Source: Catenuloplanes niger
GTDB taxonomy: Bacteria; Actinomycetota; Actinomycetes; Mycobacteriales; Micromonosporaceae
Direction of reading: 5' to 3'
NCBI RefSeq assembly: GCF_031458255.1
Contig: NZ_JAVDYC010000001.1
Location: forward strand, 6,271,001-6,335,000
Length of the DNA: 64,000 nucleotides
Positions 7,659 through 62,509 of the stretch are shown one piece after another. The stretch's first letter is position 1. The number at the start of each line of letters is the position of its first letter. The notes under the pieces are model-generated. The model saw only the letters and a list, made by a program, of their open reading frames with translations. It searched no databases and had not been told where the DNA came from. The position numbers and the translations under genes are program-made.

Positions 7659-8864
7659 TCACGAGCAGAAGGCGGTCTCCACCGCGCCGACCACGTGCAG
7701 GTGCGCGGCGCGCCCGGACGGGCCGGCGGTGACCGCGACCGTGACGGCGCGTCCGTCGGCGCGGATGCCGCCCCGGGTCTCGAAGCCGGGCACGTCGCCG
7801 CCGTGGCCCCAGTACGCGCCGCCGCACTTCAGCGGCGTGCGGGTGAGGCCGAGGCCGTACCGCACGCCGGGCCACATCTGGTCGCCGGTGTCCACGGTCG
7901 TGCGCATCTCGGCCAGCTCGGCCGGCCCGAGCAGGCGGCTCTCGAAGAGCAGCGCGCGGAAGAACGTGTTCAGGTCGCGGGGCGTGGCGATCATGGCGCC
8001 GGCCGCCCACGCCCAGGACGGGTCGGCCACCGTGACGTCGTCGCGCGGGTCGCCCTCGTACGCCCGGGGGTGCGGCGCGCGCAGCGTCTCCTCGTCACCC
8101 TTCGGGAAGTAGGTCTCGCGCAGGCCCAGCCGGTCGATCACCCGCGTGGTGATCTCGTCCGCGACCGTGTGCCCGGTGAGCCGCTCGATCATCAGGCCGA
8201 GCACGACGTACCCGGTGTTGCTGTAGCGCCAGCCCTTCCCGGGCGGGAACGTGGGCGGCTTCGAGAACGCGATCCCCAGCAGGTCCGCCGGGCTCCGATA
8301 GAGGTGCCGGCCCTCGTCGAAGTCGGAGTCGCGCATGTGGTCGGTGTAGTTCGCCAGGCCGCTGGTGTGCTGCAGCAGCTGCCGCACCGAGATGTTCTTG
8401 CCGCCCGGGACCACGCCGGGCAGGTAGGTCTGGATCGACCGGTCGAGCTGGACCCGGCCCTCCGCGACCAGCTGCAGCACGACCACGGCCGTGAACGTCT
8501 TCGTGTTGCTGCCGATCCGGACGTACCCGTTGGCCGGTGGCGCTTCGCCGGTGGCCAGGTCACCGGCGCCCGCGGTGTAGTCCCGGGCGTCGCCGCCGGG
8601 GTCCTCGACGGACGCGAGCACACCCGGGAACCGGTCCGTCGTGACCAGCGCCGCCAGGCTGCGCCGGAACGCGACGTCGGGCTCGTTCTCCACGGCCGGC
8701 GCGTCCGGGGCGCCCCGGACGGCCGGTGCCGGTGCCGGCGTGGTGGCCGGCGGCCGCGCCTCCGGCACGGCCGGTTCCCGCGCGGCGGTCGTGCCGGCGA
8801 CGGCGATGCCGACCGCGAGGAGCAGCGCGATCGCCGCGGTGATGGCCTTCGCGCGGATCGTCAT
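7659..8864 (-). CDS. Secreted serine hydrolase, paralogue of its neighbour
   Basis: A 401-aa member of the same class C beta-lactamase / D-Ala-D-Ala carboxypeptidase fold as the gene at 6435-7550, with the same GSNTKTFTAVVVLQLV active-site block, QLLQHTSGLANYTDH, RYSNTGYVVLG and WGHGGDVPGFETRGG. It differs by an extra Pro/Ala-rich stretch of about 35 residues between the signal anchor and the catalytic domain. ATG 8864 is preceded immediately by GGAGG; the in-frame ATG at 8882 (MPHSGG...) would give better spacing for an upstream site and cannot be excluded. The open frame continues far upstream but overlaps the aldo/keto reductase gene. Confidence 0.88.
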   Translation of the reverse strand: MTIRAKAITAAIALLLAVGIAVAGTTAAREPAVPEARPPATTPAPAPAVRGAPDAPAVENEPDVAFRRSLAALVTTDRFPGVLASVEDPGGDARDYTAGAGDLATGEAPPANGYVRIGSNTKTFTAVVVLQLVAEGRVQLDRSIQTYLPGVVPGGKNISVRQLLQHTSGLANYTDHMRDSDFDEGRHLYRSPADLLGIAFSKPPTFPPGKGWRYSNTGYVVLGLMIERLTGHTVADEITTRVIDRLGLRETYFPKGDEETLRAPHPRAYEGDPRDDVTVADPSWAWAAGAMIATPRDLNTFFRALLFESRLLGPAELAEMRTTVDTGDQMWPGVRYGLGLTRTPLKCGGAYWGHGGDVPGFETRGGIRADGRAVTVAVTAGPSGRAAHLHVVGAVETAFCS

Positions 8865-8930
8865 GCCTCCAGAGTGCGGCATGACGGCATGTCCGCGAAA
8901 CGACGATCGGTGCCCGGCGCCGGACCGCGA

Positions 8931-8943
8931 TAGATTGCGGCCA
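8931..8943 (+). promoter_or_regulatory. Putative leaderless promoter of the aldo/keto reductase gene
   Basis: The hexamer TAGATT (8931-8936) is followed by 6 nt and then ATG 8943. No Shine-Dalgarno is present, so transcription probably starts at or next to the ATG. No clear -35 hexamer is seen. Confidence 0.5.
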
Positions 8944-9722
8944 TGACGGTTCCCACGGTCACCCTTCCGCTGCCGGACGGTTCGGCCGCCGAGATGCCGA
9001 TGGTCGGCTTCGGCACCTGGCGGATGCGGGGTCAGCAGGCCTACGACGCGACCCGCGCCGCGCTCGACGCCGGTTACCGGCACATCGACACCGCCACCAT
9101 GTACGGCAACGAGGCCGAGGTCGGCCGTGCGCTCCGGAACAGCGGCGTGCCCCGCGAGGACGTCTTCATCACCACGAAGCTGCTGCCCGAGGACGCCGGC
9201 CGGGAGAAGCGGGCGCTCACCGCCAGCCTGCGCAGCCTCGGCGTGCAGCAGGTCGACCTGTGGTTGATCCACTGGCCGCCCGGCGGGCTGGCCGCGCCCG
9301 AGGTGTGGCGCGAGTTCATCAGCGCGCAGGACAGCGGGTTCGTCCGGTCGATCGGCGTCAGCAACCACGCGCCGGAGCAGATCGACGAGCTGGTCGCGGC
9401 GACCGGGCGGCGGCCGGTGGTGGACCAGATCCCGTGGAGCCCGGTCCGGCACGACCTGCCGCTGCTGGCCGACCTCCGCTCGCGTGACGTGGTGGTCGAG
9501 GGTTACAGCCCGATCAAGCGCACGCCGATGACCTCGCCGGTGCTGTCCGAGATCGCCGGACGGCACGGTAGGACGCCGGCCCAGGTGGTGCTGCGCTGGC
9601 ACCTCCAGCACGACATCGTGATCATTCCGAAGTCGGCGCACCCGGACCGGATCGCGGAGAACATCGACCTGTTCGGCTTCACGCTCACCGCCGACGAGAT
9701 GCGCGCGATCGACCGCCTCTGA
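8943..9722 (+). CDS. Aldo/keto reductase
   Basis: A 259-aa cytosolic NADPH-dependent oxidoreductase of the AKR superfamily. The catalytic tetrad is visible: Asp49 and Tyr54 in DTATMYGNE, Lys79 in TTKL and His110 in IHWPP. The GFGTW start and the late IIPKSAHPDRIAEN motif (cofactor pyrophosphate site) are also family signatures; length matches the short 2,5-diketo-gluconate reductase-like group. It is monocistronic, divergent from the serine hydrolase pair. The natural carbonyl substrate is unknown. Confidence 0.9.
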   Translation: MTVPTVTLPLPDGSAAEMPMVGFGTWRMRGQQAYDATRAALDAGYRHIDTATMYGNEAEVGRALRNSGVPREDVFITTKLLPEDAGREKRALTASLRSLGVQQVDLWLIHWPPGGLAAPEVWREFISAQDSGFVRSIGVSNHAPEQIDELVAATGRRPVVDQIPWSPVRHDLPLLADLRSRDVVVEGYSPIKRTPMTSPVLSEIAGRHGRTPAQVVLRWHLQHDIVIIPKSAHPDRIAENIDLFGFTLTADEMRAIDRL

Positions 9723-9789
9723 CCGCCCGCCGCCCCGTCACGGCGTGGCCGGACAGGGCGGGCCGGCGAGGCGACCGCCCACCGCTTTT

Positions 9790-21273: not shown

Positions 21274-22407
21274 TTACCCCTCGTCGGCCAGCACCCGGCG
21301 CGCGACGGCCAGCGCGGCGTTGCTCGCGGGTACGCCCGCGTAGACCGCGGTGTGCAGCAGCACCTCGCCGATCTCCGCCGCGGTCAGGCCGTTCCGGCGG
21401 GCCGCGCGTACGTGCATGGCCAGTTCGTCGTGGCAGTGCAGCGCGGTCAGCACGGCGAGCGTGATCATGCTGCGGCTGCGGCGGTCGAGCGTGTCCCGGG
21501 ACCAGATCTCACCCCACGCGTACCGGGTGATGAAGTCCTGGAACGGCGCGGTCAGTGGCGTGGTGCCGGCCACGGCGCGGTCCACGTGCTCGTCGCCGAG
21601 CACCTGCCGGCGTACGACCATGCCGGTGTTCTCCGCGGTCCGGTCCTCCAGGTGGTCGAGGAGCAGCGCGGTGACCGCGTCGGCGCGTTCGACGTTGGCC
21701 AGGTGCGCGGCCTCGGGCAGCACCACCAGGCGCGCGCCGGGAATCCCGTCCGCGATGAGCTGGCCGTGCGGCGGTGGCGTGGCCGGATCGTCGCGGCCCG
21801 CGATGACCAGCGTGGGGGCGGTGATCGTGGCGAGGTCGGCGCGCTGGTCCATGTGCTGGACGACCGCGCAGGCGCCGGCGTACCCCTCTGGCGGGGTCTT
21901 GATGATCATGGTTTTGAGCGTGTCGACCAGCTCCGGGTGACGCTCGGCGAACCCGGTGGTGAGCCAGCGGCCGGCGACCGCGTCCGCGACGGCCCGGGTG
22001 CCGTGCGCGCGGACGGTCCGTGCCCGCTCGGCCCAGCCCTCCGGCGGTCCGAGCCGCGCGGACGTGCAGCAGAGCACGAGGCGGCCGACGCGTTCGGGCG
22101 CGTGCGCGGCCAGCCACATCGCGGTCATCCCGCCGAGCGAGAGTCCCACCACGTGCGCGGACGCGACGCCGAGCCGGTCCAGCAGCGCGAGCGCGTCCCG
22201 GCCGAGATCGGCGAGGGCATAATCCCCCGGCGGTACGGGTGAGCGCCCGTGCCCCCGGGTGTCACAGCGGATCACCCGGAACCGGCGGCTCAACGCGGGC
22301 AGCTGCGGGTCCCACATGCTCAGGTCGCTGCCCAGCGAGTTCAGCAGCAGCAGCGGCGGCGCGTCCACCGGCCCGTCCACCACGTGATGCAACTCGACGA
22401 CACTCAC
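21274..22407 (-). CDS. pcaL: Fused 3-oxoadipate enol-lactonase / 4-carboxymuconolactone decarboxylase
   Basis: A 377-aa bifunctional enzyme. Residues about 1-250 form an alpha/beta hydrolase (PcaD): nucleophile Ser90 in GLSLGG, acid in AGRDDPATPP, His in EAAHLANVE. Residues about 255-377 form the PcaC decarboxylase (FITRYAWGEIWSRDTLDRRSR, HVRAARRNGLTAAEIGEVLLH). The DC fusion is the PcaL arrangement known from Rhodococcus and Streptomyces. GTG 22407 has AGGAGG 6 nt upstream; the longer open frame is rejected. It turns 4-carboxymuconolactone into 3-oxoadipate in the cytoplasm. Confidence 0.92.
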   Translation of the reverse strand: MSVVELHHVVDGPVDAPPLLLLNSLGSDLSMWDPQLPALSRRFRVIRCDTRGHGRSPVPPGDYALADLGRDALALLDRLGVASAHVVGLSLGGMTAMWLAAHAPERVGRLVLCCTSARLGPPEGWAERARTVRAHGTRAVADAVAGRWLTTGFAERHPELVDTLKTMIIKTPPEGYAGACAVVQHMDQRADLATITAPTLVIAGRDDPATPPPHGQLIADGIPGARLVVLPEAAHLANVERADAVTALLLDHLEDRTAENTGMVVRRQVLGDEHVDRAVAGTTPLTAPFQDFITRYAWGEIWSRDTLDRRSRSMITLAVLTALHCHDELAMHVRAARRNGLTAAEIGEVLLHTAVYAGVPASNAALAVARRVLADEG

Positions 22408-22513
22408 GCCGAACCTCCTGTTCCCGCGGCCGGTGTCGCGGTGCCGCCGAGCCCGGTCCCACGGCGTCGGCGGCCGCTTTCGCACCCGGCGTCCCGCGAC
22501 GGGGACGATGTGG

Positions 22514-24562
22514 TCACGCGTCGCCCTTGGGGTGGGCGGCCAGTGCGCGATCGACGAGCGGGCCCGCGCTGCCCAGGTACTCCGCCGGGTCGAGGAGCGC
22601 GGTCACCGCGTCCCGGTCCAGGTGCGCGGTGACGCGCGGATCGCCGGCGAGCGGCCGGCCGTCCCGCACCACCGCCGCGACCAGGTCGTGGGCGGCGTCC
22701 CTGCCGAGATCCTCGGCGAGCACGCCCGCGACCCGCTCGGCCAGCAGCGCGCCGCCGGTCAGGTCCAGGTTGGCGCGCATGCGGGCCGGGTCGACCTCCA
22801 GGCCGGTGAGGCAGTCCCGCAGCCAGTACGCGGCGGAACCGGTGGCCCGCAGCAGGTCGGTGAGCGGCAGCCACTCCGCGTGCCAGGCACCGGCGGCGCG
22901 CTGGTGCTCGTGCGGCATGGCCGCGAACAGCGTGCCGGCCAGTCCGGGCGCGCGGGCGGCGGACGCGGCGGCGGAGATCGCGGCGACCGGGTTGGCCTTG
23001 TGCGGCATGCTGGACGAGCCGCCGCGGCCGCCGCCCTCCCGCACCTCGCCGACCTCGGTCTGCGCGAGCAGGATGACGTCGCGGGCGATCTTCGCGATCG
23101 TGCCGGCCGCGCCGGCCAGCGCGCCGGCCAGCTCCGCGATCCGGCCGCGGTCGGTGTGCCAGGGCAGGATCGGCTCGTTCAGCTCGAGTTCGTCGGCGAA
23201 GACGGAGATCAGCTCCGGCCCGATCCGGCCGTCGCCGGCCGCGCGCACCGCACCGCTCCGGCCCGCGACCCCGCCTCGTCCACCCTCCGCGCCACCCGCT
23301 CCCACCGGCCCCGCATCCGGGCTCCGCAACCGTGCCGCATCGACGGCGTCGGCCACGCCGGACGCGCCGGCCACGCCGGACGCGCCGGCCGCGTCGTCTC
23401 GCGCCGCATCGGCGGCGTCGGCTTGTGCCGTATTTGGTGTGTCGCCTCGTGCTTGGTGGTCTCGTGCCGTGTCGGCTCGTGCCGTGTCGGCTCGTGCCGT
23501 GTCGGCTTGTGCCTGGTGGTCTCGTGCCGCGTCGGCTGTGTTGCCTTGTGCCGCACCGGCCGTATCGACGCGTGCCGCGTCGGCCGTGTCGCCCTGTGCC
23601 GGGTCGGTCTGCGGCGTGGTGCGGGTCTGGGATGTGGTGCCCGTCTGCGGCATGGCATCGCTCTGCGGCGCCCGGGTCTCGTGCGCCCGGGTCTCGTGCG
23701 CCCGGGTCTCGTGCGCCCGGGTCTCGTGCGCCTGGGTCTTGTGCGCCTGGGTCTTGTGCGCCTGGGTCTCGTGCGCGTGGGGTTCGTGCGTGTGTTGCGC
23801 GGCGAGGTCGCCGATCGCGGCCAGGGTGCCGGTGGCGCCGCCGAGCTGGGCGGCGAGCGTGCCGTGGCGGACGCGGGCCAGGCGGGCGCCGGCGGCGTCG
23901 AGCGCGGTCATCCAGCCGGCCGCGATCAGGCCGAACGTGGTCGGGAGCGCCTGCTGGAGCAGCGTGCGGCCGGCGATCGGCGTGTCCCGGTGCACGGCGG
24001 CGAGCGTGGCGGCGCGATCGGCGGCGGAGGCCAGGTCGGCGCGCAGCGGGCCGGTGGCGCGCCGGGCGACCAGCATCGCGGCGGAGTCGATGATGTCCTG
24101 GCTGGTGGCGCCCGCGTGGGCGAACCGGGCCAGGTCCGGCGGCAGTTGGGCACGCAGTGCGCGTACCAGCGGCACCACGGGGTTTCCGGCGGAGACCGCG
24201 TCGCGCGCGAGCGCGGCCGGATCGAACCGGGACGCGTGACAGGCGTTCGTGATCGCCACCGCGGCCGCCGGCGGGATCAGGCCGAGCCGGGCCTGGGCGC
24301 GGGCCAGCGCGGCCTCGGCGTCGAGCATGGCCTGCAGCCAGGCGGTGTCGCCGACGGCATCGCGCACCGGCCCGGCCGACAGCACCCCGTCGAACAGCCC
24401 GAGCCGGTCAGCGTCGCGAGCCGCGCCGGGCCCGGAATCCGCGCCGGGGCCGGAATCCGCAATGGGGCCGGAATCCGCGCCGGTGCCGGCAGCAGGGCCG
24501 GGGCCGGGAGCCGGGGTGCCGTGGGGAGGCGGGTCAGAGTGCGAAGAAGACGGTCTCATCAT
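22514..24562 (-). CDS. pcaB: 3-carboxy-cis,cis-muconate cycloisomerase with a large repetitive insertion
   Basis: A 682-aa protein of the fumarase/aspartase superfamily, far longer than the usual 350-480. The family core is intact on both sides of an insertion: LFDGVLSAGPVRDAVGDTAW, GATSQDIIDS (151-160) and QLGGATGTLAAIGDLAAQ before it; ELNEPILPWHTDRGRIAELA and the SSSMPHKANP signature loop (516-525) after it. Residues about 256-450 are an Ala/Thr/His/Asp-rich repeat tract (AHETR, ADTAR units). A second small repeat (ADSGPG) lies near residue 35. The start overlaps pcaG by 29 nt; ATG 24559 is an alternative. The enzyme lactonises carboxymuconate; whether the insertion is tolerated is unknown. 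Confidence 0.85.
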   Translation of the reverse strand: MMRPSSSHSDPPPHGTPAPGPGPAAGTGADSGPIADSGPGADSGPGAARDADRLGLFDGVLSAGPVRDAVGDTAWLQAMLDAEAALARAQARLGLIPPAAAVAITNACHASRFDPAALARDAVSAGNPVVPLVRALRAQLPPDLARFAHAGATSQDIIDSAAMLVARRATGPLRADLASAADRAATLAAVHRDTPIAGRTLLQQALPTTFGLIAAGWMTALDAAGARLARVRHGTLAAQLGGATGTLAAIGDLAAQHTHEPHAHETQAHKTQAHKTQAHETRAHETRAHETRAHETRAPQSDAMPQTGTTSQTRTTPQTDPAQGDTADAARVDTAGAAQGNTADAARDHQAQADTARADTARADTARDHQARGDTPNTAQADAADAARDDAAGASGVAGASGVADAVDAARLRSPDAGPVGAGGAEGGRGGVAGRSGAVRAAGDGRIGPELISVFADELELNEPILPWHTDRGRIAELAGALAGAAGTIAKIARDVILLAQTEVGEVREGGGRGGSSSMPHKANPVAAISAAASAARAPGLAGTLFAAMPHEHQRAAGAWHAEWLPLTDLLRATGSAAYWLRDCLTGLEVDPARMRANLDLTGGALLAERVAGVLAEDLGRDAAHDLVAAVVRDGRPLAGDPRVTAHLDRDAVTALLDPAEYLGSAGPLVDRALAAHPKGDA
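23446..23535. repeat. 15-bp tandem repeat within pcaB, block 2
   Basis: Six consecutive 15-bp units of the type CTCGTGCCGTGTCGG, three of them identical (23461-23505). They encode ADTAR-like pentapeptides on the minus strand and keep the pcaB frame. Confidence 0.85.
23669..23788. repeat. 15-bp tandem repeat within pcaB, block 1
   Basis: Eight 15-bp units of the type CGCCCGGGTCTCGTG, the first four identical and the last four drifting (CCTGGGTCTTGTG variants). They encode AHETR/AHKTQ pentapeptides in the pcaB frame. Confidence 0.9.
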
Positions 24563-25100
24563 CCCCCTGCAGCCGGATGTCGAAGCGGTAGCCGGCGCCG
24601 TCCGGCCGGGCGAGCAGCGTGGGCCGGCGGGCCTCCGGGACGGTCGCCAGCACCGGGTCGGCCGCGTTCGCGGTGGCCTCGTCGGCGAAGTAGATCCGGG
24701 TCACCACGCGGTGGAGCAGTCCGCGCGCGAGGACCGAGACGTCGATGTGCGGCGCCTGCGGGCGGCCCTCGCGGTCCGGTACGACGCCCGGCTTCAGGGT
24801 GATTATCGCCCAGTTGCCGGCGTCGTCGGTGGGACACCGGCCGAATCCGCGGAAGCCGCTGTCCGTGGCGCCGCGCGGGTCGTCCGGGTGCGCGAAACCG
24901 CCGGCCGGGTCCGCCTGCCACGTCTCGATCAGCGCGTCCGGCACCTCGGCGCCGGCGCCGTCGAACACCGTGCCGAAGATCCGGATCGCGCCCGGTGTGT
25001 CCTCCTCGACCACGGAGTGGCCGTCCGGCCAGGGCAGGCCGATCGACAGGTACGGCCCGACCGTCTGCGACGGGGTGAGCCCGTCGAACTCAGTCGTCAT
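24534..25100 (-). CDS. pcaG: Protocatechuate 3,4-dioxygenase alpha subunit
   Basis: A 188-aa intradiol dioxygenase alpha chain: SQTVGPYLSIGLPWPDG, ALIETWQADPAGGFAHP, GFGRCPTDDAGNW and APHIDVSVLARGLLHR align with the PcaG pattern. The alpha chain keeps the fold but not the iron ligands (Pro-His-Ile-Asp in place of the PAHIHF of PcaH). It pairs with PcaH to cleave protocatechuate between its hydroxyls. Its start lies 11 nt inside the end of pcaH and its end overlaps pcaB, indicating coupled translation. Confidence 0.95.
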   Translation of the reverse strand: MTTEFDGLTPSQTVGPYLSIGLPWPDGHSVVEEDTPGAIRIFGTVFDGAGAEVPDALIETWQADPAGGFAHPDDPRGATDSGFRGFGRCPTDDAGNWAIITLKPGVVPDREGRPQAPHIDVSVLARGLLHRVVTRIYFADEATANAADPVLATVPEARRPTLLARPDGAGYRFDIRLQGDDETVFFAL

Positions 25101-25800
25101 GCGGCTCCTCCGTCGGGGTACCGTCCTCGCCGGCCAGCACGATGTCGAAGCGGAAGCCGAGCGCCCACGACTCCACGGTCGCGTCCAGGTCGAACCGGGC
25201 GATCAGCCGCCGGCGGGCCCGCTCGTCCCGGACCGAATTGAAGATCGGGTCGTACGCGAACAGCGGGTCGTCCGGGAAGTACATCTGCGTCACCAGGCGC
25301 TGCGTGAACGCGCGCCCGAGCAGCGAGAAGTGGATGTGCGCCGGCCGCCACGCGTTCGGGTGGTTCCCCCACGGGTAGGCGCCCGGCTTGACGGTGACGA
25401 ACCGGTAGCGTCCCGCGTCGTCGGTCAGGCAGCGGCCCACGCCGGTGAAGTGCGGGTCGAGCGGCGCGTGGTGCTGGTCCCACCGGTGCTGGTAGCGCCC
25501 GGCCGCGTTGGACTGCCACACCTCGACCAGGGTGTGCGGGATCGGCCGGCCGCCTGCGTCCCGCACCTGCCCGTGCACGACGATCCGCTGGCCCTGTGCC
25601 TCGCCGCCGGGCGCGAGCGTGAGGTCGGCGTCCTCGGGGCGCACCCGGCCCTCGCCGAGCAGCGGGCCGGTGACCTCGGTGAGCGAGTGCGGCAGCAGCA
25701 CGAACTGTTCGCGTGGCGCCCGCAGCACGGTGGACCGGTAGCCGGGGGAGAGCAGCGGCGGATGCGTCGTACCGTCGTCGCGCCGGTAGGTCGGCAGCAT
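25090..25800 (-). CDS. pcaH: Protocatechuate 3,4-dioxygenase beta subunit
   Basis: A 236-aa iron-binding intradiol dioxygenase. The four non-haem Fe(III) ligands are visible: Tyr103 (GRYQHRW), Tyr142 (GAYPWGNHPN), His155 and His157 (RPAHIHFS). The VEVWQSNAAGRY block is the intradiol signature. It opens the aromatic ring of protocatechuate to 3-carboxy-cis,cis-muconate, the first committed step of the operon. ATG 25800 lies one nucleotide after the pcaJ stop. Confidence 0.96.
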   Translation of the reverse strand: MLPTYRRDDGTTHPPLLSPGYRSTVLRAPREQFVLLPHSLTEVTGPLLGEGRVRPEDADLTLAPGGEAQGQRIVVHGQVRDAGGRPIPHTLVEVWQSNAAGRYQHRWDQHHAPLDPHFTGVGRCLTDDAGRYRFVTVKPGAYPWGNHPNAWRPAHIHFSLLGRAFTQRLVTQMYFPDDPLFAYDPIFNSVRDERARRRLIARFDLDATVESWALGFRFDIVLAGEDGTPTEEPHDD

Positions 25801-42677: not shown

Positions 42678-43796
42678 CTACACCACGGGGCGTCTGCGCG
42701 GCCGGACGGTCTTGCGGGCGCCGTCCGGCTTGACCGCGAAGCCGGCGCTGAACGACCGTACCCGCGAGGCCTTGATGGTCTGCTGTTTCGCGGACCGGGG
42801 CCGGGGCAGGCGCGGCGCGTGCGGGCGGTCGTCCTTGGCCGTGGGCTGCCAGCGGTCCGGCTCGGCCGGTTCGGGCGCGCCGACCCGGGCCGCCTCCAGC
42901 TGGGCCGCGAACGCGAGGCCGAGGAACAGCGCGATCCCGGTCAGGTTGGCCCACAGCAGCAGCGCGATGATGCCGGTCAGCGGGCCGTACGTCTCGCCGA
43001 AGCCGCCGGAGAAGCGCACGTACGCGGCGAGCAGCAGGCTGGTCGCCCACCACAGGATCGTGGCCAGCGTGGCGCCGAACAGCAGCCAGGACAGGCCGGG
43101 CTGGCGGCGGCGCGGCGCGAACCGGAAGATCACCCCGATCGCGAAGATGACCAGCGCGAGGCTGCCCGGCCAGCGCACCACGTCCCAGACGTCCGAGAAC
43201 ATCGCGCCCCAGCCGGGGTAGCGGGCCTCGATCGAGTCGCCGAACGGCCGGCCGGCGACCAGCGTGAGGAAGCCGAACAGCGCGGGTACGCCGGCCAGCA
43301 CGGCCAGCGCGGCGGCGCGGACGTACTTCAGCACCGCCGGCCGGTCCCGCTCGACGCCGTAGATCCGGTTCGCGCCGCGCTCGATCTGCGCCATCGTCTG
43401 GGTGAGCGACACCATGCCGGTGATCAGGCCGAGCGTCAGCGCGAGCTCACCCGCGTCCTCGGTCGCGTCGTCCTCGGTGAGCAGGTCCGCGACCACGTCG
43501 TGGCTGGCACCGGGGGTCAGCGCCAGGATCGTGTCCGCCACGACCAGGCCGCCCTCCTCGACGCCGAGGTCGGTGGCGAGACCGGCGAGCGCGATCAGGA
43601 ACGGCACCACCGCGAGGCACAGCTGGAGTGCGAGCGCGCGCGAGTGGCTGAACCCGTCGCCGTAGCGGAACCGGACGAAGGCGTCGTGGAACAGGTGCCA
43701 GCGGCCGTAGACGCGCAGCGCGTGCCAGGCGTCGTCCGCGGACAGCTCGTCCCCGGACATCAGCTGCGTCTCGGGGACCTGATTGGTGCTGCTCAT
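42678..43796 (-). CDS. YihY/BrkB-family inner-membrane protein
   Basis: A 372-aa protein with about six transmembrane segments. HSRALALQLCLAVVPFLIALAGLAT and the ERGANRIYGVERDRP and GFGETYGPLTGIIALLLWANLTGIAL blocks identify the YihY/virulence-factor-BrkB family. The C-terminal tail of about 60 residues is basic and cytosolic. ATG 43796 overlaps the diacylglycerol kinase stop as ATGA. Exact role unknown. Confidence 0.88.
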   Translation of the reverse strand: MSSTNQVPETQLMSGDELSADDAWHALRVYGRWHLFHDAFVRFRYGDGFSHSRALALQLCLAVVPFLIALAGLATDLGVEEGGLVVADTILALTPGASHDVVADLLTEDDATEDAGELALTLGLITGMVSLTQTMAQIERGANRIYGVERDRPAVLKYVRAAALAVLAGVPALFGFLTLVAGRPFGDSIEARYPGWGAMFSDVWDVVRWPGSLALVIFAIGVIFRFAPRRRQPGLSWLLFGATLATILWWATSLLLAAYVRFSGGFGETYGPLTGIIALLLWANLTGIALFLGLAFAAQLEAARVGAPEPAEPDRWQPTAKDDRPHAPRLPRPRSAKQQTIKASRVRSFSAGFAVKPDGARKTVRPRRRPVV

Positions 43797-44785
43797 GCCT
43801 TCTCCTTCACCCGGTCGGCCCCCTCGGCCAGGTCGCGGGCGCGCTCCGGCCGGGGCACGCACAGCACCAGCGCCTTCGGCCGGAGCCGGACGCGCAGCAC
43901 CTCGGCCGGCGCGATCAGGTCGCCGTCCAGCTGCCGGGGCTGCGCCCGGTTGCTGCGGATCTCGACCTCGGACGCGGTGTACAGCTCCATCCGCGGCACC
44001 CGCCGCCACCGGTAGAGCACGCCGAGCCCGAGCACCACCCACTGGCCGAGGCTGCGCGCGGTGACCACGGCCACGTTGAACTGGCCGTCGTCCGGTTCCG
44101 CGTCGGCCAGCAGCCGCACCCCGCCCTGCAGCCGGCCCACGTTGCCGATCAGCACGGTACGGGCGCGCCGGTCCAGTACCCGGTTGCCGTCGAGCCTGAT
44201 CCGCACCCGCATCGGCCGGTCCCGGAGGTGCCGGGCCGCGCCGAACAGGTACGCGAACCAGCCGATCCGCTTCTTCGCCCGCTCGGACGTGCCGGCCAGC
44301 ATCTGCGCGTCGAAGCCCATGCCGGCCATCACCGCGAAGCAGTCACCGGTCTCGTCCACCTCGCCGACGTCGATCAGCCGCCGCCCGCCGTCCAGCACCA
44401 CCTGCACGGCCGCGGCCACGTGCCCTTCCAGGCCCAGGTTCGCGGCCAGCAGGTTGCCGGTGCCGGAGGGCAGCACCGCCATCGCCACGCCGGTCCCGGC
44501 CAGCCCGGTGATCGCGGCCCGCACGGTGCCGTCGCCGCCGGAGACGAACACCACCTCCGCGCCGGCCCGGACCGCGGCGCGCGCCTGGCCCAGCCCGGGG
44601 TCCTCGGGCGTGGTTTGCAGCCAGAGCGGCTCCGGCCAGCCGGCTATCGCCAGCCCCTCACAGATCAGCCGTTTGTGCTCGTCGAGGTCGGCGACCTTCA
44701 CCGGGTTGACCACCACCGCCGTCCGCACCGGCCGGGGCACGGCCGCGCGCAGCACCGCATGCGGCTGCCCGCTGTCTTCCATCAC
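43793..44785 (-). CDS. Diacylglycerol kinase-family lipid kinase
   Basis: A 330-aa lipid kinase. GGDGT (residues 83-87) in VFVSGGDGTVRAAITGLAGTG and VLPSGTGNLLAANL are the DAGK catalytic-domain (DagK/YegS) hallmarks. GTG 44785 is immediately followed by an ATG, so the exact first residue is uncertain by one codon. It phosphorylates diacylglycerol or a related lipid and is coupled to the YihY gene. Confidence 0.88.
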   Translation of the reverse strand: MMEDSGQPHAVLRAAVPRPVRTAVVVNPVKVADLDEHKRLICEGLAIAGWPEPLWLQTTPEDPGLGQARAAVRAGAEVVFVSGGDGTVRAAITGLAGTGVAMAVLPSGTGNLLAANLGLEGHVAAAVQVVLDGGRRLIDVGEVDETGDCFAVMAGMGFDAQMLAGTSERAKKRIGWFAYLFGAARHLRDRPMRVRIRLDGNRVLDRRARTVLIGNVGRLQGGVRLLADAEPDDGQFNVAVVTARSLGQWVVLGLGVLYRWRRVPRMELYTASEVEIRSNRAQPRQLDGDLIAPAEVLRVRLRPKALVLCVPRPERARDLAEGADRVKEKA

Positions 44786-52251: not shown

Positions 52252-52439
52252 CTCGGACTCTCCGAAAGGCAGGTCGGGTGGCGGGACATCCCGAAGCCTG
52301 TGCCACGTCCGCGGCCCACGGCGGGCGCGCGCCGAATCACGGCACATTTCCGGGAGTCCACCGGAACACCGGCATCGCCGCAGGTCGCACCGGTCAACCG
52401 GGGGAGCGCGGACCCCGGGCTCCCGGGTTCGCTCGGCGG

Positions 52440-53090
52440 CGGTTCCCCGTTTCACGCGGCGGCGGCCGCGATGTCGCGCGGCCGGGCCGCGATGTCGCGC
52501 GGCGGCGGTTCCGATGTCGCGCGGCGGCGGTTGCTGGTTCGCACAACCCCGTCCCGGTTCGCGTGGCGCCGGTTCGCGTGGCGCCGGTTCCGCGGGTCCC
52601 GGTTCGCGGTCCCCGGGTTCGGGCGGTAGCGGTTCCCGACCTCGTGCGGCTGCCATCGCCGGTTTCGGGTGGCAACGGTTCCCAGGTGCCGGTTTCCGCG
52701 TGGCTGCGGTTCCCGGCTTCGCGTCGCTGGAGTTCCCGGTGTCGGGGCTCCGGTCCCCGCGGTGGTCGGGTGGGCCTCGGCGACCCGCGCGGCCCGGTTC
52801 CGGCGGTCCGAGGCGGCCGGACGGGCCTCGGTTCCGATGGTCGGTGGCGATTCGCGTGGCCTCGGTTCCGATGGTCGGTGCCGATTCGTGTGGCCTGGTT
52901 GCGGCGGTCGGTGGTGATTCGTGGGGGCTGGTTCCGAGGGTCGGCGGCGGATTCGTGTGGCCTGGTTGCGGCGGTCGGTGGTGATTCGTGGGGGCTGGTT
53001 CCGAGGGTCGGCGGCGGATTCGTGTGGCCTGGTTGCGGCGGTCGGCGGCGATCCGCGCGGCCCGGTCCCGATGGTCGGCGGCGGCTGGGG
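52440..53090. repeat. Minisatellite-like degenerate tandem repeat region
   Basis: The about 1.1 kb between the lipoprotein (52252) and LacI (53372) genes carries no supported gene. Most of it is built of degenerate GC-rich repeats: CGATGTCGCGCGGCGGCGG-like units (52460-52530), GGTTCGCGTGGCGCC units (52550-52600), and 33/34-bp GATTCGNGTGGCC...GGTCGG units (52800-53080). All frames are open because stop codons are absent from the repeats, not because of codon bias. Confidence 0.75.
52883..53049. repeat. Exact 67-bp tandem duplication within the minisatellite
   Basis: Units 52883-52949 and 52950-53016 are identical; a third begins at 53017 and matches for about 30 bp. Each unit is itself two related 33/34-bp halves. 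Confidence 0.9.
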
Positions 53091-61150: not shown

Positions 61151-61654
61151 GACGTTTCTCCTTCCGGTTCAGGTGGCGCGGCCCCGGACCAAGCCGTCCT
61201 GGTCGGACGGATGGTGGAGGTCCGGGTCGTACGCGCCCCTGGCTGGTGGGGTTTGCGGTCGAGTCCGATACGCGCGCAATGCCCGTTCTGACCGACCACA
61301 ACGGAGCGTAATTTGCCGATGGCCTCTCCGTGGCCACTTCTTCGCGCCGCCACGCCGCGATGCCTGTCGCGTAAGTGACACTTAAAGTAAATAGGACGAA
61401 ATAACGCGATATTAACGGTTTGTTAGCGCGGGCAACCGGATGATTTGCGGCGAATCGCCGCGGTGTCACCGCTGCCCTGTGCTACCGGCCGCGCCCGTGG
61501 GCCCGTATCGACGTGGATGGCCGGGCCGCGGCGAGGCCCCAGGCGCCGCCCGGCCGCACGTCGCCCGTACAACACCGGTATGCGGGCGTCCGCGCCGCGC
61601 ACCCGGACGACCTCGCCCCGACCCCCACGTCGATACACGGCCTAGTCTGTGTCG
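61151..61654. other. Non-coding region with inverted repeats upstream of the membrane protein gene
   Basis: About 500 bp with no supported gene. An AT-rich stretch (about 61370-61430) contains TAAGTG-A-CACTTA (61372-61384), probably part of the lectin promoter. A 12-bp inverted repeat GTATCGACGTGG (61505-61516) / CCACGTCGATAC (61625-61636) brackets 108 bp just before the putative leaderless start at 61655. Confidence 0.6.
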
Positions 61655-61655
61655 A
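61643..61655 (+). promoter_or_regulatory. Putative leaderless promoter
   Basis: TAGTCT (61643-61648) is exactly 6 nt before ATG 61655; no Shine-Dalgarno. Confidence 0.5.
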
Positions 61656-62509
61656 TGCGTTGGCTCAGATCTGCTCCGGTGATCCTCGGCGTCGCCGGTC
61701 TCGCCGTCGCCGGGGCCGTGCTCCTGCTGCCGTGGGTCGCCGGTGTCGCGGCCGCGACGGCCGCGGCGCTGCTCATCACGCACCCGTCGGTCGGCCGGGT
61801 GGCGGACGCTCCGGCCCGCGTGCTGCTGCGGGCGATCCCGCTGCTGGCCGCCGGAGCGATCGTGCTGCGGATGTGGGAACTGGGCAGGTGGCGATTCGTG
61901 AACCCGCTCCAGGCGGCGCTCGACGTCGACCGCTACCGGACCGCCTACGCGGCCCAGCTCCTCGCCGTCGGCTGCCTGATCCTCGCGATCGGCTGCGTCG
62001 GCGCATCGATCACCCGATCGCTGCACCGGTCACGCCCGGCCGTGTCCGCCGGGCCGCCCGCGCCGGCGACGCCCGCCGGGTCGCCCGCGCCGGCGACACC
62101 CGCCGCGCCAGCCGTGCCCGCTGCTCGGGCGGCAGCCGTGCCGGCCACGGCCGCGCCAGCCGTGCCCGCCGCGCCAGCCGTGCCCGCTGCTCGGGCGGCA
62201 GCCGTGCCCGCCACGGCCGTGCCCGCCGGGCTCGCGGTGATCGGCGGGCTCGTGCTCGTGGCCGCGGCGTGGGTGGCCGTGCGGATCGCCGTGGCCGGCG
62301 GTGACATGTTGCGCACCACGCTCTCGCTCGCCGGACTCACTGAGGGCGGCGCGTTCGTGCAACCGGGTCTGAGGTATTCGGCGGCCTCCACGGTTCCGGC
62401 CGGCATCGTCCTCGACGCGGAGTCCGCCGCGCTCGCCGGTGCGGCGCTGCTCGGCGCGCTGCTGGCGGTGCTGGCCGGCGCCCGCCTCGCCGCACCGGAA
62501 CGGGCCTGA
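61655..62509 (+). CDS. Hypothetical membrane protein with duplicated Ala/Pro linker
   Basis: A 284-aa protein with about six hydrophobic segments: two or three near the N-terminus (VILGVAGLAVAGAVLLLPWV, AAATAAALLI), one at AAQLLAVGCLILAIGCVGA, and two after a long Ala/Pro linker (about 128-190). The linker contains a near-duplicate PAVPAARAAAVPATA segment from a 63-bp tandem DNA repeat (about 62100-62225). ATG 61655 fits a leaderless start; GTG 61649 is in frame. No family recognised. Confidence 0.7.
   Translation: MRWLRSAPVILGVAGLAVAGAVLLLPWVAGVAAATAAALLITHPSVGRVADAPARVLLRAIPLLAAGAIVLRMWELGRWRFVNPLQAALDVDRYRTAYAAQLLAVGCLILAIGCVGASITRSLHRSRPAVSAGPPAPATPAGSPAPATPAAPAVPAARAAAVPATAAPAVPAAPAVPAARAAAVPATAVPAGLAVIGGLVLVAAAWVAVRIAVAGGDMLRTTLSLAGLTEGGAFVQPGLRYSAASTVPAGIVLDAESAALAGAALLGALLAVLAGARLAAPERA

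Follow-up and report, generated by a model that had tools for sequence, protein, structure and literature searches.

A long in-frame tandem-repeat insertion in the core of a Catenuloplanes PcaB, at a turn of variable length

The pcaB gene of a Catenuloplanes soil bacterium, found in a 64-kb stretch of DNA (the window), encodes a protein whose catalytic core is interrupted by 195 residues carrying several in-frame tandem arrays. An earlier note on this DNA had described a long tandem-repeat tract within PcaB, in frame throughout and either recent or homogenised. Alignment, structure matches and the lengths found at the site in relatives all support an in-frame insertion in the core that is both long and recent. 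The best explanation, and one that we consider probable, is that in-frame minisatellites have grown by slippage or recombination in a tolerated turn of a working enzyme.

The gene lies between pcaHG and pcaDC, the gene order expected of a pcaB, and its start is overlapped by pcaG (Table 1). The encoded protein matches the lyase fold family PF00206 with 108.6 bits (cut-off 27) and contains the GSSxMPHKxNP loop as well as the catalytic-loop and GATSQD segments. None of the 49 positions that are invariant in the 39 other rows of the alignment is changed. Its score against the whole-protein model TIGR02426 (355.4 bits) falls below the cut-off of 355.75, and the name PcaB is therefore based on orthology and gene order, not on that model. 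The insertion probably lowers this score, since the three short-loop congeners lie above the cut-off (370.4, 380.4 and 374.6 bits) and the one with a 72-residue loop lies below it (349.3 bits). Cycloisomerisation by the PcaB of this strain is a predicted activity.

Table 1. Positions of pcaB, its neighbours and the repeat features of the insertion (window coordinates).
Feature	Positions	Strand	Basis or detail
pcaDC, bifunctional enol-lactonase/decarboxylase (fused)	21274..22485	minus	NF051488 539.6 bits, cut-off 390
pcaB, 3-carboxy-cis,cis-muconate cycloisomerase	22514..24562	minus	ORF, 682 aa
195-residue insertion, residues 255-449	23216..23800	minus	separates core part 1 (residues 55-254) from core part 2 (450-682)
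Gly-rich tail of insertion	23216..23398	minus	alignment with congener loop, and composition
18/9-bp array, GASGVA units	23346..23393	minus	TRF rows 23346-23390 and 23356-23393
15/30-bp array, ADTAR and ARDHQ units	23439..23537	minus	TRF: 6.6/3.3 copies, 77/82% match
24-bp array	23524..23607	minus	TRF: 3.5 copies, 75% match
Degenerate 18-bp array	23605..23670	minus	TRF: 3.7 copies, 66% match
15-bp array, AHETR/AHKTQ units	23668..23790 (123 bp)	minus	TRF: 8.2 copies, 94% match
Second private array of pcaB, N-terminal, DSGPGA units	24421..24507	minus	TRF: 18 bp x 4.8
pcaG, protocatechuate 3,4-dioxygenase alpha	24534..25100	minus	TIGR02423 231 bits, cut-off 126.25
pcaH, protocatechuate 3,4-dioxygenase beta	25090..25800	minus	TIGR02422 347.8 bits, cut-off 296.4

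The insertion lies within 3 bases of where the earlier note had put it and has the length of about 195 residues reported there; in a 40-row alignment it appears as a gap block at residues 251-444. Comparison with known structures places it between two otherwise adjoining halves of the enzyme. Residues 5-206 and 211-447 of 1re5 (PcaB/CMLE from Pseudomonas putida) align to residues 56-254 and 453-679 of the query, so that 4 residues separate the matched parts where PcaB has 198 (query 254 to 453). Both core halves likewise align to 1q5n (PcaB/CMLE from Acinetobacter) and to CreD (5xny), with 2 and 14 residues, respectively, between the matched parts against the 198 here.

An AlphaFold2 model of PcaB has a mean pLDDT of 76.6, with values of at least 90 at 335 of its 682 residues. 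Foldseek matches it to 1re5 with a TM score, normalised by target length, of 0.89; the alignment has 633 columns although the 1re5 chain has 440 residues, indicating that the insertion is gapped out. Conserved residues 241-250, beside the insertion, reach a pLDDT of only up to 64. The insertion is hydrophilic (GRAVY -0.99 compared with 0.22 for the core), and the flexible loop that had been suggested for it agrees with two stretches in which pLDDT is below 50 (residues 293-340 and 388-436) but not with the helices modelled at residues 265-293 (pLDDT 57-79) and 342-372 (mostly 75-89).

The repeats of the insertion exceed chance: its best TRF score is 183, whereas 200 codon shuffles averaged 29 and went no higher than 88. 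They make up less of it than the earlier description, mostly AHETR/AHKTQ and ADTAR pentapeptides, had implied. There are seven exact AHETR/AHKTQ/AHETQ units (35 aa) and three exact ADTAR units (15 aa), together 50 of the 195 residues; the remainder is degenerate A/D/T/R-rich or Gly-rich sequence, with 24-, 18- and 9-bp arrays. The reading frame is indeed kept throughout, but none of the six frames of the insertion contains a stop codon, so that an open frame by itself says little and is weak as sole evidence. All TRF periods in the insertion (15, 18, 24, 30 and 9 bp) are multiples of 3 and the arrays lie inside the ORF. This rules out a frame switch, because units of these lengths cannot shift the frame; a phase-variable gene, and with it the idea of a copy-number-variable switch in the phase-variation sense, is not supported. 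With tandem units in frame and a length that varies among close relatives, the insertion qualifies as an intragenic minisatellite or low-complexity loop.

To compare lengths at this site we used 114 loci (L009-L122). In one of these (L038) the second half of the protein was not matched, leaving 113 measured loci, or 105 after removal of identical ones. One search supplied the top 80 of its 433 relatives and another supplied 25 loci beyond the genus, so that a more distant genome may still have a long loop. At all 100 distinct PcaB-like loci from outside Catenuloplanes the site has only -3 to +14 residues, and +1 in 84 of them. The flanking core is thus contiguous elsewhere, as the two 1re5 segments had also indicated, and a tract of comparable length, which if spread across many genera would have spoken against a recent insertion, occurs at none of the 100. 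The five Catenuloplanes are quite different, with 195 residues in this genome (G000), 72 in G001, 22 in G002, 9 in G004 and 6 in G003, and the site is a length hotspot of the genus. The protein is enlarged relative to its relatives, as had been claimed, but the net gain over the nearest congener (G002, 90% identical) is smaller, at 173 residues, because G002 already has 22.

The loops of the congeners also bear on the order of events. The Gly-rich tail of the insertion ends in residues (AAGDGRIGP) that are matched in the G002 loop of 22 residues, indicating that a longer loop predated the arrays and that part of the tail is likely to be ancestral. The 72-residue loop of G001 is Ser/Pro-rich, unrelated in sequence and not repeat-identical, and so suggests that this turn has been lengthened more than once independently.

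Codon use differs between parts of the insertion. Its middle block (91 residues) has a CAI-like value of 0.28, compared with 0.72 and 0.78 for the two core parts, and a GC3 of 0.68 compared with 0.96 for the core; the codon use of the AHETR block is core-like (CAI-like 0.81). The N-terminal 18-bp array of pcaB, which is private to this genome, has a CAI-like value of 0.24. Within the 15-bp array, identical neighbouring units have point variants in common, the pattern that serial duplication would be expected to give.

We propose that the in-frame minisatellites grew by replication slippage or unequal recombination, and that they did so at a short helix-helix turn directly after the conserved LGGAxGTLA segment. 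This turn is +1 residue long in most actinobacterial relatives; in Catenuloplanes it has been lengthened variously and with differing sequence, to 195 residues here. The two halves of the core would still fold together with the insertion looped out at the surface, and the insertion would be tolerated rather than selected for its sequence.

Several other origins were considered. A mobile element is not indicated, as there are no convincing terminal repeats and the genome has no other complete copy, its 26 further matches being of 26-82 bases. Paired terminal repeats were not found at the ends of the insertion; the one 24-nt inverted pair (71%; arms 23666-23689 and 23868-23891) has one arm in the middle of the insertion and the other beyond it. 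No intein domains were reported for the PcaB protein by Pfam, and no tRNA or tmRNA genes were found in the 64-kb window. An antisense gene was rejected, the codon-position signal of the core being on the minus strand and open plus-strand frames being the expectation for a 73% GC sequence. A 10-mer common to the two repeat blocks in different frames, GCACGAGACC, is no evidence for a common origin read in two frames because 201 of 500 dinucleotide shuffles reach at least 10. Loss of the actinobacterial mismatch-repair nuclease NucS is not the cause, since PF01939 scores above its cut-off in all five Catenuloplanes.

The insertion might instead have a selected role, for example as arms, helical or disordered, by which PcaB is held to neighbouring enzymes of the pathway or its assembly is adjusted. 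The AlphaFold2 helix at residues 342-372 would favour such a role, but the insertion is almost without aligned homologues in the alignment used, and AlphaFold2 tends to draw Ala-rich repeats as helices. There are precedents, in that inserts of actinobacterial Rho raise its RNA affinity (PMC8828861) and a low-complexity insert gives a Plasmodium nuclease a broader substrate range (PMC11260460). Against this, the congeners differ at the site both in sequence, which is unrelated, and in length, which falls as low as 6-9 residues; this argues against any fixed peptide function and so against the scaffold suggested earlier. The codon use of the middle block is also unadapted. The analyses give no sign of selection on the inserted peptide, and we regard a selected role as unlikely.

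A second alternative is decay of pcaB in this species, with the arrays as a first indication that constraint has been lost. Two private arrays in one gene would fit decay, as would the single PcaB-like match in this genome at E <= 0.001, which is pcaB itself, with no compensating second copy seen. Core changes on the G000 branch number 18 synonymous and 15 nonsynonymous, compared with 25 and 9 on the G002 branch, but this excess does not reach significance, either relative to the G002 branch (Fisher p 0.13) or relative to a pool of 12 genes (183/79; p 0.11). When the core is compared with that of G002, dN/dS is 0.18 for the N part and 0.29 for the C part, values well below 1, with 8 other window genes at 0.06-0.32 in the same comparison; against G004 the C part reaches 0.40, above the 0.06-0.35 of 8 other genes. 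The branch excess would fit mild relaxation. Decay itself appears quite improbable for a gene with a 682-codon open frame, whose product retains the invariant residues and whose pca neighbours score above curated family cut-offs. The enzyme core looks intact, and this provides indirect evidence that the PcaB of this strain may still work.

Assembly errors more often collapse tandem arrays, which counts against the idea that the array length is itself such an error. That idea draws on tandem arrays being a known source of assembly errors (PMC6868369), and is very unlikely for a genome assembled as one contig of 9,742,698 bases (99.97% complete), with non-identical units, short arrays (123 bp at 23668-23790) and a long loop of 72 residues also in G001, itself a single contig.

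We surveyed 20 stretches of 20 kb per genome (400 kb) for tandem arrays, counting as strong any array with a score of at least 140. This genome had 32 strong arrays per 400 kb, G002 had 7 and G035, from another genus, had 16; compared by stretch, G000 has significantly more than G002 (p 0.007), whereas its difference from G035 does not reach significance (p 0.10). Across the syntenic 64 kb, strong arrays per 100 kb number 7.8 in G000, G002 and G001, 14.1 in G004 and 1.6 in G003, so that the excess is not seen there, G000 not being the highest. Periods that are multiples of 3 occur in 107 of the 137 arrays with a score of at least 50 in the G000 sample, which makes such units weak as proof of selection on the frame. 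Of 47 arrays with a score of at least 100, eight combine a codon signal of 0.25 or more with 60 or more codons on either side, and each of these eight has a period divisible by 3. In-frame repeat growth is not special to PcaB; similar insertions occur in other genes and are missing in some or all of the four congeners. Of the insertions in recognised enzymes among the 52 called ORFs of the window, that of pcaB is the largest.

Other repeat-bearing loci were recorded in the course of this survey. A Pfam scan of nine array-bearing or comparison ORFs gave matches in five, including FUSC_2 and beta-lactamase. In the ORF at L154:12156-14360, which has two NIR_SIR_ferr stretches, about 35-91 and about 49-108 residues at two array sites are wholly or partly missing in the four congeners. 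The DEAD/helicase ORF at L152:1-1794 has two in-frame array sites, which are absent from G001 and G003 but mostly present in G002 and G004, and the GGDEF-EAL ORF at L140:8504-12052 has a 30-bp array directly after a GGDEF match ending at profile position 89 of 161. A long ORF at L153:17602-19998 contains 180-bp repeats (6.6 copies), which we take to be of the kind seen in Rhs/YD proteins.

In the window, a membrane-protein gene at 61646-62506 has an Ala/Pro/Val loop expansion, which is longer and of other sequence in G002 and is lacking in G004 and G001. A non-coding minisatellite at 52429-53084, with periods of 22, 33, 67 and 134 bp, lies ahead of a lipoprotein-like gene; its length exceeds that in G002, G004 and G003 by some 262, 223 and 281 codon-lengths, respectively. 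Two further candidates were set aside: the apparent 263- and 281-residue differences of the ORF at 7662-9737 lie upstream of the gene in the alignment and are not insertions, and the apparent length differences of the ORF at 42681-44342 lie ahead of the conserved protein.

The growth in PcaB may reflect a general mutational tendency of this genome to form in-frame arrays, tolerated where the protein can bulge. More tentatively, and with some doubt, Catenuloplanes and this genome above all might have a raised birth rate of in-frame GC-rich minisatellites that repeatedly plants loops or helical arms in ordinary enzymes, as a GC-rich bacterial counterpart of the Plasmodium insertions.

Similar tracts have been described in other systems. 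The low-complexity insertions of Plasmodium (PMC11260460) are likewise long tracts inside conserved enzymes that are absent from a related species; the PcaB insertion differs in consisting of GC-rich 15-30 bp minisatellites and in being bacterial. In high-GC Actinobacteria, the insertion domains at the N-terminus of Rho (PMC8828861) are also disordered, lineage-specific inserts in a conserved oligomeric enzyme. They belong to an N-terminal domain and affect RNA binding, whereas that of PcaB lies between helices of the catalytic core. In-frame tracts are also found among the intragenic tandem repeats and low-complexity regions of prokaryotic proteins, where PMC6821194 attributes them to slippage, recombination and repair; the tract of PcaB is set apart by lying within one catalytic domain and by varying in length among five congeners. 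Among the open-licence papers listed, no title concerned a PcaB insertion or repeats in Catenuloplanes. Slippage-grown protein tracts are already known, and PcaB is an extreme case of a known kind, inside one catalytic domain.

The five Catenuloplanes provide a natural length series of 6, 9, 22, 72 and 195 residues at one turn of a conserved enzyme core in closely related species. This series allows tests of how much unrelated sequence a fumarase-fold enzyme carries at a turn without losing activity, and of whether such loops gain functions. If the excess of arrays holds genome-wide, the genus could be a bacterial model for the growth of low-complexity sequence in coding regions.
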